A DNA stretch of 41,207 nt from Lachnospiraceae bacterium. Lineage in GTDB: Bacteria; Bacillota; Clostridia; Lachnospirales; Lachnospiraceae. The notes below the pieces were generated by a model. It was given only the letters and a program-made list of their open reading frames with translations, was not told the DNA's origin and made no database searches. Location: NCBI GenBank assembly GCA_021205305.1, contig JAJPXU010000048.1, positions 1 to 41,207 on the forward strand, given 5' to 3'. Within the stretch, counting starts at the first letter, position 1. Each line of letters opens with the position of its first letter. The position numbers and the translations under genes are program-made. Shown one piece after another: positions 12,841-33,929 of the stretch.

Positions 12841-12847
12841 CATTGCG

Positions 12848-12921
12848 TAGCGGAGGGGAGACTTGAACTCTCGACACCACGGGTATGAACCGTGTGCTCT
12901 AGCCAGCTGAGCTACTCCGCC
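12848..12921 (-). tRNA. tRNA-Met (CAT anticodon)
   Basis: ggcggagtagctcagctggctagagcacacggttCATacccgtggtgtcgagagttcaagtctcccctccgcta; full cloverleaf. Confidence 0.93.
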
Positions 12922-12969
12922 ATATAATATAGTTCTCATACCTCGCGGTACGGAACATTTGTGAATCTA

Positions 12970-13042
12970 TGGGGCCTATAGGGCTCGAACCTATGACCCT
13001 CTGCTTGTAAGGCAGATGCTCTCCCAGCTGAGCTAAGACCCC
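12970..13042 (-). tRNA. tRNA-Val (TAC anticodon)
   Basis: ggggtcttagctcagctgggagagcatctgcctTACaagcagagggtcataggttcgagccctataggcccca; full cloverleaf. Confidence 0.95.
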
Positions 13043-13142
13043 ATATCAAGTGAGCCATCGGCTGACTCACTTTGCCATTATAATACAGCTCCAACGGAAT
13101 TGTCAAGCATTTTTTTCGTAATTAATGAAAATTAATGCCATG

Positions 13143-13406
13143 AGTGAAATGAAAATTTAAATTCCACAACTCGGGGGTACAAGTGGAATTCAGTCTTACT
13201 CAAAATTCCACTTGTATTTCCGGCGTTCGCAGCAAAAACCTAGTGGAAATCAGTCTTACACCATATGGCCTACCCAATTCTACTGGGTAAATGATGGCGT
13301 AAATGGAATGAAGTTTTACTCCTTGACTGTGCTTTTAATCCCTGAAAGAGTGAAATCCACCGGAAAATCACAAATTTTGGTGTGGAAATAAACTTTTCAC
13401 TTCAGC
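13143..13406. mobile_element. 264-bp non-coding interspersed element, copy 1, with 13-bp TSD aattaatgccatg
   Basis: Appears base-identical by eye to 27460-27723; flanked by direct repeats 13130-13142 and 13407-13419; imperfect terminal inverted repeats (agtgaaatgaaaatttaaattccac / gaagtgaaaagtttatttccac). Confidence 0.93.
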
Positions 13407-14103
13407 AATTAATGCCATGTATTCTGGATCCGGTCTTGGGCACCATGGTTTTCCGACGAGAGGCCTCTGTTCTCCACTCTATCTGGTACACCAAACCGTG
13501 AAGGACAAAGCTCATCATCGCACCGCACACAACGTCAATGACGGAATGCTGGTCGAGCAGGACAGTGGACAGGCAGATCAGTACCATGATCACGAAATGA
13601 ACCGCGATCGTAAGCCGCCTGTGCTTCAGATTATCGAGACTGCACACGGCTTGAAAAACCATCACTGTGTTCATCACATGAATAGACGGGCACACGTTTG
13701 TCGGCGTGTCGATCGCCCGAAGCATGACGACCAGATTGTACAGAGCACCTGTCTCATGCGGCGAAGAAGCCAGCCGCAGATTCAGTCCTGTCGGAAAAAT
13801 ATAATAAATAATCAGGCAGATTGTCAATCCGGAAAAAACCATCTTACAAAGCTTTATGTAATCTTCCCAGCCACGCCTGCAAAACCAGAGAAAACTGCCG
13901 ATAATGTACGGAAACCAGAAAATGTAAGGAATGATGAACACTTCACAGAAAGGAATCAGTTCATCCAGCTTACAGTGAATGATGTATTTCGGTACGACAT
14001 TCTCTTCCAGCCACTGAAAAGCGAACAGGTAAAACACAAGATAACATACGGAAATCATAAGCGGATATTTACGAAACCAGGCTTTGATTTTCTGAATTCT
14101 CAT
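13402..14103 (-). CDS. PAP2-superfamily phosphatase-like integral membrane protein
   Basis: Multi-TM protein with CPSIHVMNTVMVF and DQHSVIDVVCG motifs; start ATG 14103 with gaggag RBS. The 3' end lies in the 264-bp element. Confidence 0.85.
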   Translation of the reverse strand: MRIQKIKAWFRKYPLMISVCYLVFYLFAFQWLEENVVPKYIIHCKLDELIPFCEVFIIPYIFWFPYIIGSFLWFCRRGWEDYIKLCKMVFSGLTICLIIYYIFPTGLNLRLASSPHETGALYNLVVMLRAIDTPTNVCPSIHVMNTVMVFQAVCSLDNLKHRRLTIAVHFVIMVLICLSTVLLDQHSVIDVVCGAMMSFVLHGLVYQIEWRTEASRRKTMVPKTGSRIHGINC

Positions 14104-14120
14104 AAAAACATCTCCTCGAT

Positions 14121-14305
14121 TTGTCATGATTCGTATTACGAATCATGACGCAGGCCGGGCTCATCGCGCAGCGAGTTTCATTGCCCGGCTCTCCAATATT
14201 TGTCATGATTCGTATTGTGAATCATGACGCAGGCCGGGCTCATCGCGCAGCGAGTTTCATTGCCCGGCTCTCCAATATTTGTCATGATTCGCATTGCGAA
14301 TTTTG
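14121..14305. repeat. Tandem REP-like palindromic array, 79-bp period, ~2.3 copies
   Basis: ttgtcatgattcgtat... begins at 14121, 14200 and 14279; each full unit carries an 11-bp stem (gtcatgattcg/cgaatcatgac) and a 7-bp stem (gccgggc/gcccggc). Confidence 0.92.
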
Positions 14306-26183: not shown

Positions 26184-27323
26184 TTAATTCAAAAAGTCTT
26201 TTAACCGTTTGCTTCTGGACGGATGGCGCAGCTTACGCAATGCCTTCGCCTCAATCTGCCGGATACGCTCACGCGTAACATTAAATTCCTTGCCGACCTC
26301 TTCAAGTGTCCTGGCGCGGCCGTCTTCCAGACCAAAACGCAGCTTCACCACCTGACGCTCACGTTCCGTCAAAGATTCCAGAGCGGTCGACAGCTCCTCA
26401 CGCAGCATCGAGAATGCCGCGGAATCTGCCGGCGAAAGCGCCGTGTCATCCTCTATGAAATCTCCAAGATGAGAGTCATCCTCCTCACCAATCGGCGTAT
26501 CCAACGATACCGGGTCTCTTGATATCTTCAGCACTTCCCGCACACGGCTGACAGGTACATTCAGCCGCTCCGCCACTTCTTCCGGCGTCGGTTCGCGCCC
26601 CAGTTCCTGCAAAAGTGTACGCGTCATCCGCAGTGTTTTATTGATCGTCTCGACCATATGTACCGGCACCCGGATTGTTCGCCCGGTGTCCGCGATGCCC
26701 CTTGTGATCGCCTGACGAATCCACCAGGTCGCGTAGGTACTGAATTTATAGCCTTTGGTATAGTCAAATTTATCGACAGCCTTCATCAGGCCCATGTTGC
26801 CTTCCTGGATCAGATCCAGAAACGGCATCCCTCTGCCCACGTATTTCTTAGCAATGCTCACCACCAGGCGGAGATTCGCTTCGGTCAGTTTTTTCTTGGC
26901 TTCCTCATCGCCCTGCTCTACACGTTTGGCCAGCTCAATCTCTTCTTCCCCGGAAAGGAGTGGAACATTGCCGATTTCCTTCAGATACATGCGAACCGGA
27001 TCTTCTGTGCTGACATCCTCAAGTACATCCACGTCATTGATCAGTTCAATCTCCTCGTGATCCGACATGAGAATATCGTCTTCCGGCTCAAGGAGCAAAT
27101 CATCCGCGCTGTCATCGGGAGCTTCATCGGGCATCTTGCCCTGAACCACATCGATATGATTCTTCTCAAGATACTCAAGGATCATATCCATCTTGCTTTC
27201 GGTGAGTTCCATCCCCGGAAACGCGTTCATGATGTCATCATATTTGACGGTATTCTTCTGTGACCTGGCATATGTTTTCAGGTTTTCAAGCGCTTTCAGA
27301 AACTGTTCCTGTGCTTCATTCAT
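26184..27323 (-). CDS. rpoD: RNA polymerase sigma factor RpoD (sigma-A)
   Basis: [92 protein letters not shown]. Confidence 0.97.
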
Positions 27324-27459
27324 AAACAATCTCCTCACTATATGTCCCTATTTCGCTTTTCCTTGTAAAGAACGCCTTTTAGACATTCTTTATAACAATA
27401 ACATTTTTGTCGTTCGCTGTCAATGCAAAGAAAAATTTGTCAAAAAGTTTTTCCTCTAC

Positions 27460-27723
27460 AGTGAAATGAAAATTTAAATTCCACAACTCGGGGGTACAAG
27501 TGGAATTCAGTCTTACTCAAAATTCCACTTGTATTTCCGGCGTTCGCAGCAAAAACCTAGTGGAAATCAGTCTTACACCATATGGCCTACCCAATTCTAC
27601 TGGGTAAATGATGGCGTAAATGGAATGAAGTTTTACTCCTTGACTGTGCTTTTAATCCCTGAAAGAGTGAAATCCACCGGAAAATCACAAATTTTGGTGT
27701 GGAAATAAACTTTTCACTTCAGC
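27460..27723. mobile_element. 264-bp non-coding interspersed element, copy 2, with 13-14-bp TSD gtttttcctctac(a)
   Basis: Appears base-identical by eye to copy 1 (13143-13406), same strand; flanked by direct repeats 27447-27459 and 27724-27736. Confidence 0.93.
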
Positions 27724-27732
27724 GTTTTTCCT

Positions 27733-29493
27733 CTACATCACTTCGCGCAGCGTAATACCCGGGCCACCGGTATGCTCAATATACTCTCTTGTGATCCGAA
27801 CACTGCCAATGTTATCATCCTTCGGAATCTCATACATAATATCCAGCATAAACTCTTCAATAATCGCACGCAGCGCACGCGCCCCAGTCTTCTTCTTCAA
27901 AGCCTTCTCCGCAATCGCCTCCAGAGCTCCGTCGTCAAAGGTAAGCTCCACCTCATCCAGCGAAAGCAGCTTCTGGTACTGACGGATAATCGCATTGCGC
28001 GGCTCTTTCAAAATACGCACCAGCATATCTTTCGTCAGCGACTGCAGCGGACAGATGATGGGAAGTCGTCCGAGAAATTCCGGAATCATGCCAAATGCGC
28101 GCAGATCTTCCACCTCTACTTTCGTCAGCAAATCCGGATCTTCGTCATACTTATCCCGCAAATCGGAAAAAAATCCGATCGCCGCCTGCTTATTCAGGCG
28201 CTCCTTTATAATGTCTTCGAGCCCCGGAAACGCGCCGCCGCAAATAAAGAGGATATTGCTTGTATCAACTGTCGTCATCGGCACCATCGCATTTTTGCTT
28301 GCCGCGCCAACCGGCACTTCTACCTCACTGCCTTCCAGCAGTTTCAGCATTCCCTGCTGTACAGCTTCCCCGCTGACATCCCGCTGGTGGGCATTTTGTT
28401 TGCGCGCGATCTTGTCAATCTCATCAATAAAAATAATGCCCTGTTCCGCGCGCGCTACATCATTATCAGCAGCAGAAAGCAGACGCGTTACCACGCTCTC
28501 AATATCATCTCCAATATACCCCGCCTCTGTCAGCGAAGTCGCGTCCGCTATCGCAAGCGGAACATCAAGCAAACGCGCCAGAGTCTTCACCAGATACGTT
28601 TTCCCGCAGCCGGTCGGTCCGAGCAGGAGCATATTCGATTTTTCAATCTCTACATCATCAAAAGAAACCGCTGAGCGTCCGGAAGAATCCTCTCCGGTGA
28701 GGACATTGCCTTCCCCATTGCTTTCTTCTTTCCCTTCCTTTGCTTTTTCCTGCTCCTCAAAAGATGCAATTCTTTTATAATGATTGTATACTGCCACAGA
28801 AATCACCTTTTTCGCGTGTTCCTGTCCCACAACATACTCGTCAAGACTCGCCTTAATCTTATGCGGAGCCGGAATATGCGCGATATCAAGCTCTTTCTGA
28901 GGCTGTTTTTCTTTTGGTTTTTTCTTTATCTGCTGCTGCTGGCGCGGCATGCCGAAATTTCCAAACAGATCGCCCAGATTAATCATGCTGATCGTCGGTA
29001 TTCGAAAATTCCTGTGATTTTGATTTCCATTCCCTGCGGACTTTCCATCCGCTCCGCCTTCATCGTTCCCGCCGTTCGCTCCGGTCTCGCCCTCTCCGTC
29101 AGCCTCAGCCACCTCGTCGATCACACCATCCGCGTTCTCTGTACCTTCATCCGCACCCTCAGCCGTTTTCTCTTCTTTGGCCGTATCGGGTTCTTCCTGC
29201 GGATGCCCGCTTTGCACGATATCACCCTGCGCATCGGTGTCATTTGCGTTCACGGAACCACCGGAAAAACTTTCTTTTACAAGCTGTTCCGCCATCCGCT
29301 GCGCATCTTTTGGCGTAATTCCCGCAGACTGCATGGTATTAAATGCTTTCTGAATACAATCCGGGCAGACACAGATTCCGCCGGGAATCTCAATCAGTTT
29401 GCCTGCAGTGCTCTCTGACCGGCCGCACATCATGCAAAATCTTTCATATCCGTCTCTCTCGTCTTTGTTGTTCTTCATCTTTCTCTTTTGCAT
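27733..29493 (-). CDS. clpX: ATP-dependent Clp protease ATP-binding subunit ClpX with unusually long acidic/Gly-rich linker insertions
   Basis: C4 zinc-binding domain CMMCGRSESTAGKLIEIPGGICVCPDC; LDEYVVGQEHAKKVISVAVYNHYKRI; GPTGCGKTYLVKTLARLLDVPLAIADATSLTEAGYIGDDIES; IPEFLGRLPI. The start may be slightly downstream. Confidence 0.95.
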   Translation of the reverse strand: MQKRKMKNNKDERDGYERFCMMCGRSESTAGKLIEIPGGICVCPDCIQKAFNTMQSAGITPKDAQRMAEQLVKESFSGGSVNANDTDAQGDIVQSGHPQEEPDTAKEEKTAEGADEGTENADGVIDEVAEADGEGETGANGGNDEGGADGKSAGNGNQNHRNFRIPTISMINLGDLFGNFGMPRQQQQIKKKPKEKQPQKELDIAHIPAPHKIKASLDEYVVGQEHAKKVISVAVYNHYKRIASFEEQEKAKEGKEESNGEGNVLTGEDSSGRSAVSFDDVEIEKSNMLLLGPTGCGKTYLVKTLARLLDVPLAIADATSLTEAGYIGDDIESVVTRLLSAADNDVARAEQGIIFIDEIDKIARKQNAHQRDVSGEAVQQGMLKLLEGSEVEVPVGAASKNAMVPMTTVDTSNILFICGGAFPGLEDIIKERLNKQAAIGFFSDLRDKYDEDPDLLTKVEVEDLRAFGMIPEFLGRLPIICPLQSLTKDMLVRILKEPRNAIIRQYQKLLSLDEVELTFDDGALEAIAEKALKKKTGARALRAIIEEFMLDIMYEIPKDDNIGSVRITREYIEHTGGPGITLREVM

Positions 29494-32262: not shown

Positions 32263-32483
32263 ACAAAAGGGTATGATACTACGGATTTCTCCGCACTTCG
32301 TGCTCCCGAATCTCCGCTCCGCTTCGGTCGGCGCTAAACGGACATCCACTGGATGTCCAGCGCCCTAACAACATTCGGAATCCGCTCATTTTGGCCAATA
32401 TATTGTCCAAAATGGCTACTTCCTCATGTTGTTGCGGTCCCCAAGGTCATGAATCGGAACGCAAGCGTTCCATTCCTGACCTT
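32263..32483. repeat. Hairpin-rich intergenic repeat region
   Basis: ggacatcc-act-ggatgtcc (32340-32358), gcac-ttc-gtgc (32293-32303), ~20-bp compound stem around ggaacgc-aa-gcgttcc (32456-32471). Confidence 0.65.
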
Positions 32484-32495
32484 TTGTCCCTTGTA

Positions 32496-33929
32496 TCATG
32501 AAATTCCCGTCGCTGAGACGATATAGCTGCTGATCTCCTGGACAGTGGAAGACGGCGTATAGTCTGTCGTGCCAAAGAGCAGCTCATGAAGCTCCGTTAC
32601 ATTCGACGCCAGCGTCTGCGGCACGACGCAATCTCCGGCGGAGAGTGTCGCTGTGGTACTCGTAAAAGGAAAGCCCTGTGATTCCACAATCTCATACTTG
32701 GAAATTCCGCTCGCTAAAGAAAGCAGTTCCGTATTTTCCAGACTGGTCGATATATACGGAAGCAGGTTATTGACAATCGCCAACAGTCCGGTCACACCCT
32801 GCTCCTGTGCTTTTTTCAGAATCTGTGTAAGCACCGTTCTCTGACGCTCGGTTCTCTTATAATCCCAGCCGGTCGTATAGCGGATCCGACAGTATGCCAT
32901 CGCCTGGATTCCGGTCAGCGTCTGCGTACCTGACGAGGTCACTTCTGTGTAAGAACGGCCAGTCACCTCAGAGGTCTCCACCAGATAAGCGTTCAGCCAG
33001 TAGACCTCCTCATCGTCCAGTGTCACCTCAACGCCGCCAAGTTCGTCAACCACTTCAATCACAGCCTCAAAATCCACCGTGACATAATCCTCAATATCCA
33101 GATCAAGATTTTTGTTCAGCATATTGACCGCTAGGCTCGCTCCGCCATAGGCATACGCCTCTGTCGCCTTTCGGTAAGAGCCATCCGTATTATCCAGATA
33201 AGTATCACGGTAAATCGACACCAGCTTAATGTCGCCGCTTCTCTTATTGATGCTCGCAATGATAATCGTATCACTGCGGGTACCGCTCTCCAGCTCCCCT
33301 TCGCGCGAATCTACGCCGAAAATGGCAATGTTCCGATAACCGGACGATGTCACCCCGCTATTGACCAGGATATCCGACAGCTTCTCGCGATCCAGCTGTC
33401 CAAGCACACCAAGTCCGGCAATTCCGACCGCCGCAATCAATAACAGCAGGATACCAAGCACCCAGAATATCTTTCTTTTTTTCTTCTTTTTTTTCTGTTT
33501 TTTCATTTTCCCTTTTCGGTCTTTGCCATTCTCCGGCACAGGCGATCCATAAAAATCCTGGCCGTAATTTCCCTGAAAATTGTCCTGCTGACTATAATAA
33601 TTCCCCTGCGGGCCATAATAACTTGGCCCCTGCTGCGTATCCTCAGGCTGTCAATAATACTGATCTCCATAATACTGACCTCCGTTCAGGCTGCCGCCCG
33701 GCTGACCATAATACTGATCCCCATAATACTGACCGCCATTCACGCTGCCGCCCGGCTGATCGTAATATGGATTCCCATAATACTGACCGCCATTCACGCT
33801 GCCGTCCGGCTGCCCGTAATACTGACTGTCATAGTATTGGCCATCTGCGGCGTTATCCGGCCAGTCCCCATACTCCTGGCCATCCTGGTAATTATTACTG
33901 TCCTGATTCTGATTTTTACTCTTTCTCAT
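32496..33929 (-). pseudogene. LytR-CpsA-Psr (LCP) family protein gene interrupted by one in-frame TGA at 33651-33653
   Basis: RBS-preceded ATG at 33929 opens a Gly/Tyr/Gln-rich leader (18-aa repeats) in the same frame as the LCP domain (IAIFGVDSREGELESGTRSDTIIIASINKRSGDIKLVSIYRDTYLD...AYCRIRYTTGWDYKRTERQRTVL); LCP ORF 32496-33539, possible internal ATG at 33506. Confidence 0.75.

Follow-up and report, generated by a model that had tools for sequence, protein, structure and literature searches.

Identical 264-bp Elements of a Lachnospiraceae Bacterium, Probably Moved by an IS30-Like Transposase, Are Located Upstream of Housekeeping Promoters at a Nearly Constant Distance

The window, i.e., the whole stretch of 41,207 nucleotides that was analyzed, harbors two copies of a 264-bp element, which with a probability of about 0.8 is moved by a transposase of an IS30-like clade that would make a 13-bp staggered cut and insert the element at a fixed place upstream of promoters via bound RNA polymerase.

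The 264-bp Block Is a Recently Active Mobile Unit

Copy 1 (13143-13406, + strand) and copy 2 (27460-27723, + strand) are 100% identical over 264 bp, as a preliminary description of the window had claimed. The left end of copy 1 starts with AGTGAAATG and its right end closes with CACTTCAGC. Each copy lies between perfect direct repeats of exactly 13 bp, which are AATTAATGCCATG for copy 1 (promoter-proximal at 13130-13142, distal at 13407-13419, both + strand) and GTTTTTCCTCTAC for copy 2 (promoter-proximal at 27447-27459, distal at 27724-27736, both + strand), so that the two separate insertions deduced in that description from the differing repeats were confirmed. The terminal inverted repeats had been described as imperfect, and indeed the 24 nt at 13145-13168 (+) are 83% complementary to those at 13381-13404 (-). 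No substantial ORF was found inside the element, again as described, and an Rfam search of the window detected only tRNAs and a Clostridiales-1 RNA, with no match inside the element. The latter RNA, a member of a known family (RF01699, 73.7 bits), is located at 32274-32498 on the minus strand.

The genome to which the window belongs (G000; 3.12 Mb, 173 contigs) contains 11 full copies, i.e., copy 1 and ten others, which are all 100% identical, as well as two partial copies (positions 1-53 and 1-52) that are both truncated by contig ends. All full copies except the one at locus L006 have a matching 13-bp target site duplication (TSD), whose sequence differs from copy to copy. Further full copies are present in two congeners, namely six with 100% identity in G036 and 16 with 95% identity in G040. 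Tabulation of the TSD lengths over the window species and these congeners yielded exactly 13 bp for 30 of the 33 fully flanked copies; among the remaining three, a single chance match extends one duplication to 14 bp, and in the other two the flanks do not match. Empty orthologous sites were found for both window copies, whereby the joined flanks match uninterrupted DNA in G035 and G036 (75-84% identity), and the empty site of copy 2 is also present in G040. The searched plasmids and viral contigs contained neither a copy of the element nor a copy of its exact end. The block is thus a short, non-coding, multi-copy unit with inverted ends and target duplications, and because its copies are identical, carry 13-bp TSDs and correspond to empty sites in relatives, it is a real and recently active mobile unit. 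The recent movement suggested in the preliminary description is borne out by the 11 identical copies, and nothing of what it had named as speaking against a mobile element (a lack of other copies, variable duplications or an assembly artefact) came true.

The element is 100% identical in G036 (L205-L227) and in the window species, though the flanking DNA differs by 16-25%. Because of this discrepancy, the sequence comparison suggests that the element may have moved horizontally between the species.

An Autonomous Element With the Same Ends

In the window's genome, 20 occurrences of the terminal motif TTTTCACTTCAG were counted, compared to a single one of the reversed control. Eight of the 20 do not belong to 264-bp copies; they are all located where a contig ends and represent two types, and two of them pair with 13-bp duplications. 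A scan of the genome contigs for GTGGAATTTACTTTTTCACTTCAG delivered 95 stretches. The longer autonomous element that the preliminary description had proposed to look for was found in L106 (2653 bp, high coverage), which carries the motif at both of its borders and whose two ends are exactly the two end types seen at the contig breaks of the window's genome. L106 encodes a 440-aa DDE transposase and a 59-aa ribbon-helix-helix (RHH) protein. The ends of the 264-bp element and of L106 are colinear and align without gaps, with 74% identity over the left 53 bp and 81% over the right 32 bp, and this alignment comprises 25-bp inverted repeats and a box at positions 41-57. The box GTGGAATTCAGTCTTAC is repeated within both elements. 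In copy 1, it occurs internally at 13183, 13243, and 13303 (13183-13321, + strand), and in the autonomous element it is also present in the subterminal regions; we propose that these boxes bind the transposase.

Judged from these common ends, the 264-bp block derives from an IS30-like element and belongs to the non-autonomous units (MITEs). As the preliminary description had supposed, it would be mobilized in trans by a transposase encoded outside the window, namely an IS30-like one of the L106 type. No intact transposase gene was found in the assembled genome of the window, presumably because long repeats break contigs. Since the ends of autonomous elements are located at contig breaks, this genome is taken to carry several autonomous copies that were broken by the assembly.

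The RHH ORF is located behind the transposase gene (L106:2172-2351) and is also present in L158. It might possibly encode a regulator of transposition, which would be unusual for an IS30-like element.

The Transposases Represent a Distinct IS30-Like Clade

The best matches of the clade transposases are Pfam HTH_38 and NCBIfam IS30. The scores for the latter range from 62.7 to 108 bits at a cut-off of 80, whereby L188 (88 bits), L285 (108 bits) and L286 (105 bits) exceed the cut-off, and L106 (62.7 bits) and L137 (66.1 bits) stay below it, although IS30 is still their best match. Relatives from the clade carry the RefSeq name IS30 family transposase, and the helix-turn-helix (HTH) and DDE core with its conserved D/D/E blocks is what they have in common with IS30 and ISApl1; D252, D314, and E352 are invariant in an alignment of 40 relatives. 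Different from the IS30 family is an insert with eight conserved cysteines between the HTH and the catalytic core (residues 73-116 of the L106 transposase), which occurs throughout the clade and is absent from ordinary IS30 transposases of the same order. This insert would be expected to bind zinc, and the candidate zinc module might hold the promoter specificity. In the phylogenetic tree, 37 clade members are separated with full support from three ordinary IS30 transposases, whereby the long branches call for caution, and the 12 nearest relatives of L106 form one clade (support 100/99). For a structural model of the transposase (pLDDT 88), the only matches were cores of RNase-H-like integrases and of IstA, and no informative structural relative was obtained. 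By these comparisons, the cognate transposases are assigned to an IS30-like group of their own.

The kinship to IS4/IS481 types or casposons considered in the preliminary description did not hold. There was no match to IS4, and IS481 reached at best 48.7 bits against a cut-off of 224. A casposon was rejected as the autonomous partner encodes only the IS30-like transposase and the RHH protein and no Cas1 integrase. Likewise rejected was a Mutator-like origin (TnGBS/ISLre2, p-MULT 3), as the clade matches IS30 and not the Mutator models.

Thirteen-bp Duplications Occur Throughout the Clade

The TSD had rightly been described as unusually long. For insertions of IS30 and ISApl1, 2 bp are published (PMC9333248, PMC5821093). 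In place of 2 bp, duplications of 13 bp were found for the MITE, for L106-type elements, for the elements of G017, and across the clade. For L106-type elements, 20 left/right contig-end pairs were identified, and the match is exactly 13 bp long in each of them, with no pair of any other length. In G017, eight copies of a 1659-bp relative (43-45% amino acid identity) are present, and all eight have a 13-bp TSD. An automatic TSD search, in which 7 to 25 bp were allowed, was carried out over 131 transposase loci, whereby overlapping loci count a few copies twice. Of these, 59 loci had a TSD of at least 10 bp, including 26 with 13 bp, 18 with 14 bp, four with 15 bp, and two with 16 bp; this spread is as expected from a true length of 13 bp plus chance matching bases. 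Ordinary IS30 copies from the same order have their ends at contig edges or lack clear repeats, and the 2-bp norm is therefore taken from the cited papers. The IS30 family would thus be wider than its definition by a 2-bp duplication.

The Left End Faces Housekeeping Promoters at a Fixed Distance

In most copies, the DNA outside the left end contains a sigma-70/A promoter of the host that is directed away from the element. The fixed distance and orientation of the copies relative to these promoters had escaped the preliminary description. Copy 1 faces TTGACA-N18-TATAAT on the minus strand, with the -35 box at 13101-13106 and the -10 box at 13077-13082 starting 37 and 61 bp from the element boundary, respectively; downstream of this promoter are the genes for tRNA-Val (12969-13043) and tRNA-Met (12847-12921), which together span 12847-13043 (-). 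Copy 2 faces TTGACA-N17-TATTGT, with the -35 box at 27418-27423 (-) starting 37 bp and the -10-like box at 27395-27400 (-) starting 60 bp from the boundary. This promoter precedes rpoD (ORF 26184-27338, -), which encodes the primary sigma factor with Sigma70 regions 1.1, 1.2, 2, 3, and 4. As the promoters are present at the empty sites, they are the host's own.

With promoters called by consensus only, the -35 box starts at 37 ± 1 bp from the boundary (search range 33-41) in 58 of 85 left flanks versus 6 of 82 right flanks (Fisher P = 7e-17). In a closer class, the -35 box is located at 22-30 bp (~26 bp), which is about one helical turn nearer (11/85 left versus 2/82 right flanks, P = 0.018). 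About one fifth of the left flanks have no promoter at either phased position. The -10 box of the best promoter falls at 58-62 bp in the left flanks of 27/37 MITE copies, 23/40 L106-type elements, and 8/8 G017 copies, compared to 0/31, 4/43, and 0/8 right flanks, respectively; in all eight G017 copies it is found at 59-61 bp. In relatives with at least 40% identity, 18 of 20 left flanks (including the eight G017 copies) contain a promoter at one or the other phased position, and below 40% identity the signal is weak (10/27). For spacers of 15-18 the mean -35 offset is 36.5-37.25, whereby the -10 offset follows the spacer, although there are few sites off spacer 17. Since the -35 offset is constant while the -10 box shifts, these data point to the -35 side as the reference point for insertion.

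Almost every copy is intergenic, with an essential gene downstream. In 82 cases the left flank was long enough to assess the target, which is a tRNA gene in 22 of them; other targets, judging from their N-termini, probably include rpoB, infC, greA, rpmH, ftsZ, leuS, and similar genes. At the tRNA-Val promoter in G040, an autonomous element with its own 13-bp TSD AATTATCTTCGGG is located at the same offset as the window MITE, and the tRNA-Pro promoter was targeted in both species, G000 and G040 (L012, L235). Orthologous promoters are struck independently in different species.

Insertion May Be Guided by RNA Polymerase

We suggest that the transposase is directed to active sigma-70/A promoters and sets the left end ~37 bp ahead of their -35 box, or one helical turn closer; its staggered joins, 13 bp apart, would span about -59 to -72 and be centered near -65. 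The promoter would be recognized through bound RNA polymerase, most likely through alpha-CTD or sigma region 4 on the upstream face of the enzyme, and the single orientation would result from the two element ends being unlike. Insertion would thus interrupt neither genes nor the core promoter of housekeeping transcription units. We infer the contact between transposase and polymerase from an offset that is precise to the base pair, from its phasing with the helix, from the -35 side as the apparent reference point and from the large number of strong promoters among the targets. The wider proposal has somewhat better than even odds, namely that an IS30-derived clade independently evolved polymerase-guided transposition, in which the enzyme binds the sigma-A holoenzyme at its upstream face and makes a 13-bp cut at ~-65 (or one turn closer), across Clostridia. 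If this were true, active promoters would be landing sites for full elements and MITEs across the class.

It could also be that the transposase reads DNA shape, i.e., phased A-tracts and the curved UP-element region, and not RNA polymerase, so that promoters would be struck for such tracts. This has a minor but real chance, as the left flanks contain A-rich blocks ~10.5 bp apart (positions 6-12, 17-22, and 27-32), the 13-bp duplication is A-rich at its center, and a second class one helical turn closer exists. However, the same A-blocks occur in the background promoters of the same loci, at -10 to -5 and -20 to -15 upstream of the -35 box, and A-tracts alone should therefore permit any turn and either orientation. 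What is observed in the main class is an offset of 37 with an SD of 0.7 bp and one orientation.

It is very unlikely that the block is a mobile regulatory cassette which is kept for its effect on the neighboring promoter, with an offset that is functional and not a target rule. Its usual location ~60-70 bp ahead of the transcription start, a region from which activators work, and its repeated boxes, which a protein could bind, would fit such a role, but full-length ISs of the clade with other internal sequence share the offset, which thus belongs to the transposase. Still harder to credit is random insertion followed by selection that retains only copies lying harmlessly upstream of promoters. 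The intergenic location in front of essential genes would agree with it; however, selection cannot give an offset precise to 1 bp or one orientation, the copies are young, as they are 100% identical, and insertions at the same position of orthologous promoters in other species make selection hard to invoke. That the second window copy is an assembly artefact can be discarded for practical purposes, since ten copies in G000 have distinct matching duplications, copies exist in other species, and both window sites are empty in relatives, which refutes it for the two window copies even though contigs C70 and C83/C167 end in, or mismatch at, the element.

Comparison With Known Systems

Promoter-directed insertion sets the present elements apart from the IS30 family, as do their size of 1.6-2.65 kb and their repeated subterminal boxes. 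A literature search, which covered few subscription journals, turned up no IS30 family member for which promoter targeting or long duplications had been reported, and bacterial promoter-directed insertion was encountered there only for Mutator-type elements (TnGBS/ISLre2 and ISKra4). The latter elements (Mutator superfamily, p-MULT 3 and 4) insert in an oriented manner 15-17 bp upstream of the sigma-A -35 box, and the dissymmetry of their ends was proposed to set the orientation (PMC3942029). Promoter-directed and oriented insertion is common to both systems, whereas their right end faces the promoter and in the present case it is the left one. The -35 box is found here at 36-38 bp in the main class, i.e., about two helical turns further away than those 15-17 bp, or at ~26 bp in the second class. 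Moreover, the transposase is Mutator-like there and IS30-like here, and a 13-bp duplication was not seen for the Mutator-type elements in the passages considered (PMC3942029). Within the literature search, promoter-directed insertion as such is therefore known, and the IS30-like clade, the 13-bp TSD, the left end and the 37-bp distance are new.

Bacterial MITEs are likewise short, non-coding and multi-copy, with ends that match an autonomous element by which they are moved in trans; the 13-bp duplications and the promoter-directed, oriented insertion distinguish the present ones. Yeast retrotransposons are well-known examples of targeting by a transcription complex, which is rare in bacteria. 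Ty3/Ty1 and Tf1 use transcription proteins to integrate at a defined position with respect to promoters, but they are eukaryotic retroelements, and the likeness is functional only. The present elements would represent a second, unrelated bacterial transposase family with promoter targeting, with base-pair precision, helical phasing, simple 1.7-kb elements and 264-bp MITEs. They make polymerase recruitment of a bacterial transposase directly testable, and their insertions would be a natural marker of strong housekeeping promoters.

Additional Observations on Single Loci

The PAP2-like ORF adjoining copy 1 (13402-14127, -) stops at a TGA that comes from the right end of the element, and its last codons were therefore probably replaced by the insertion.

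In L006 (G000, contig C70) and L103 (G040), an autonomous left end is located 12-13 bp behind the MITE right end. The MITEs of both loci have no matching TSD on the promoter side, where the -35 box is found at 26 bp. Either one 13-bp target was used twice and the contig was misjoined, whereby contig C83 carries the matching flank in G000, or insertion took place beside a resident end. Insertion next to a resident element end is known for IS30.

In L003, an ORF for an ISAs1/H-repeat-like transposase lies directly beside a MITE copy, upstream of it, and was judged by eye to belong to an unrelated element. In G109 (C1:2848697-2848759, within L199), two element ends face each other at a distance of 15 bp and perhaps form a minimal 63-bp element composed of two ends.
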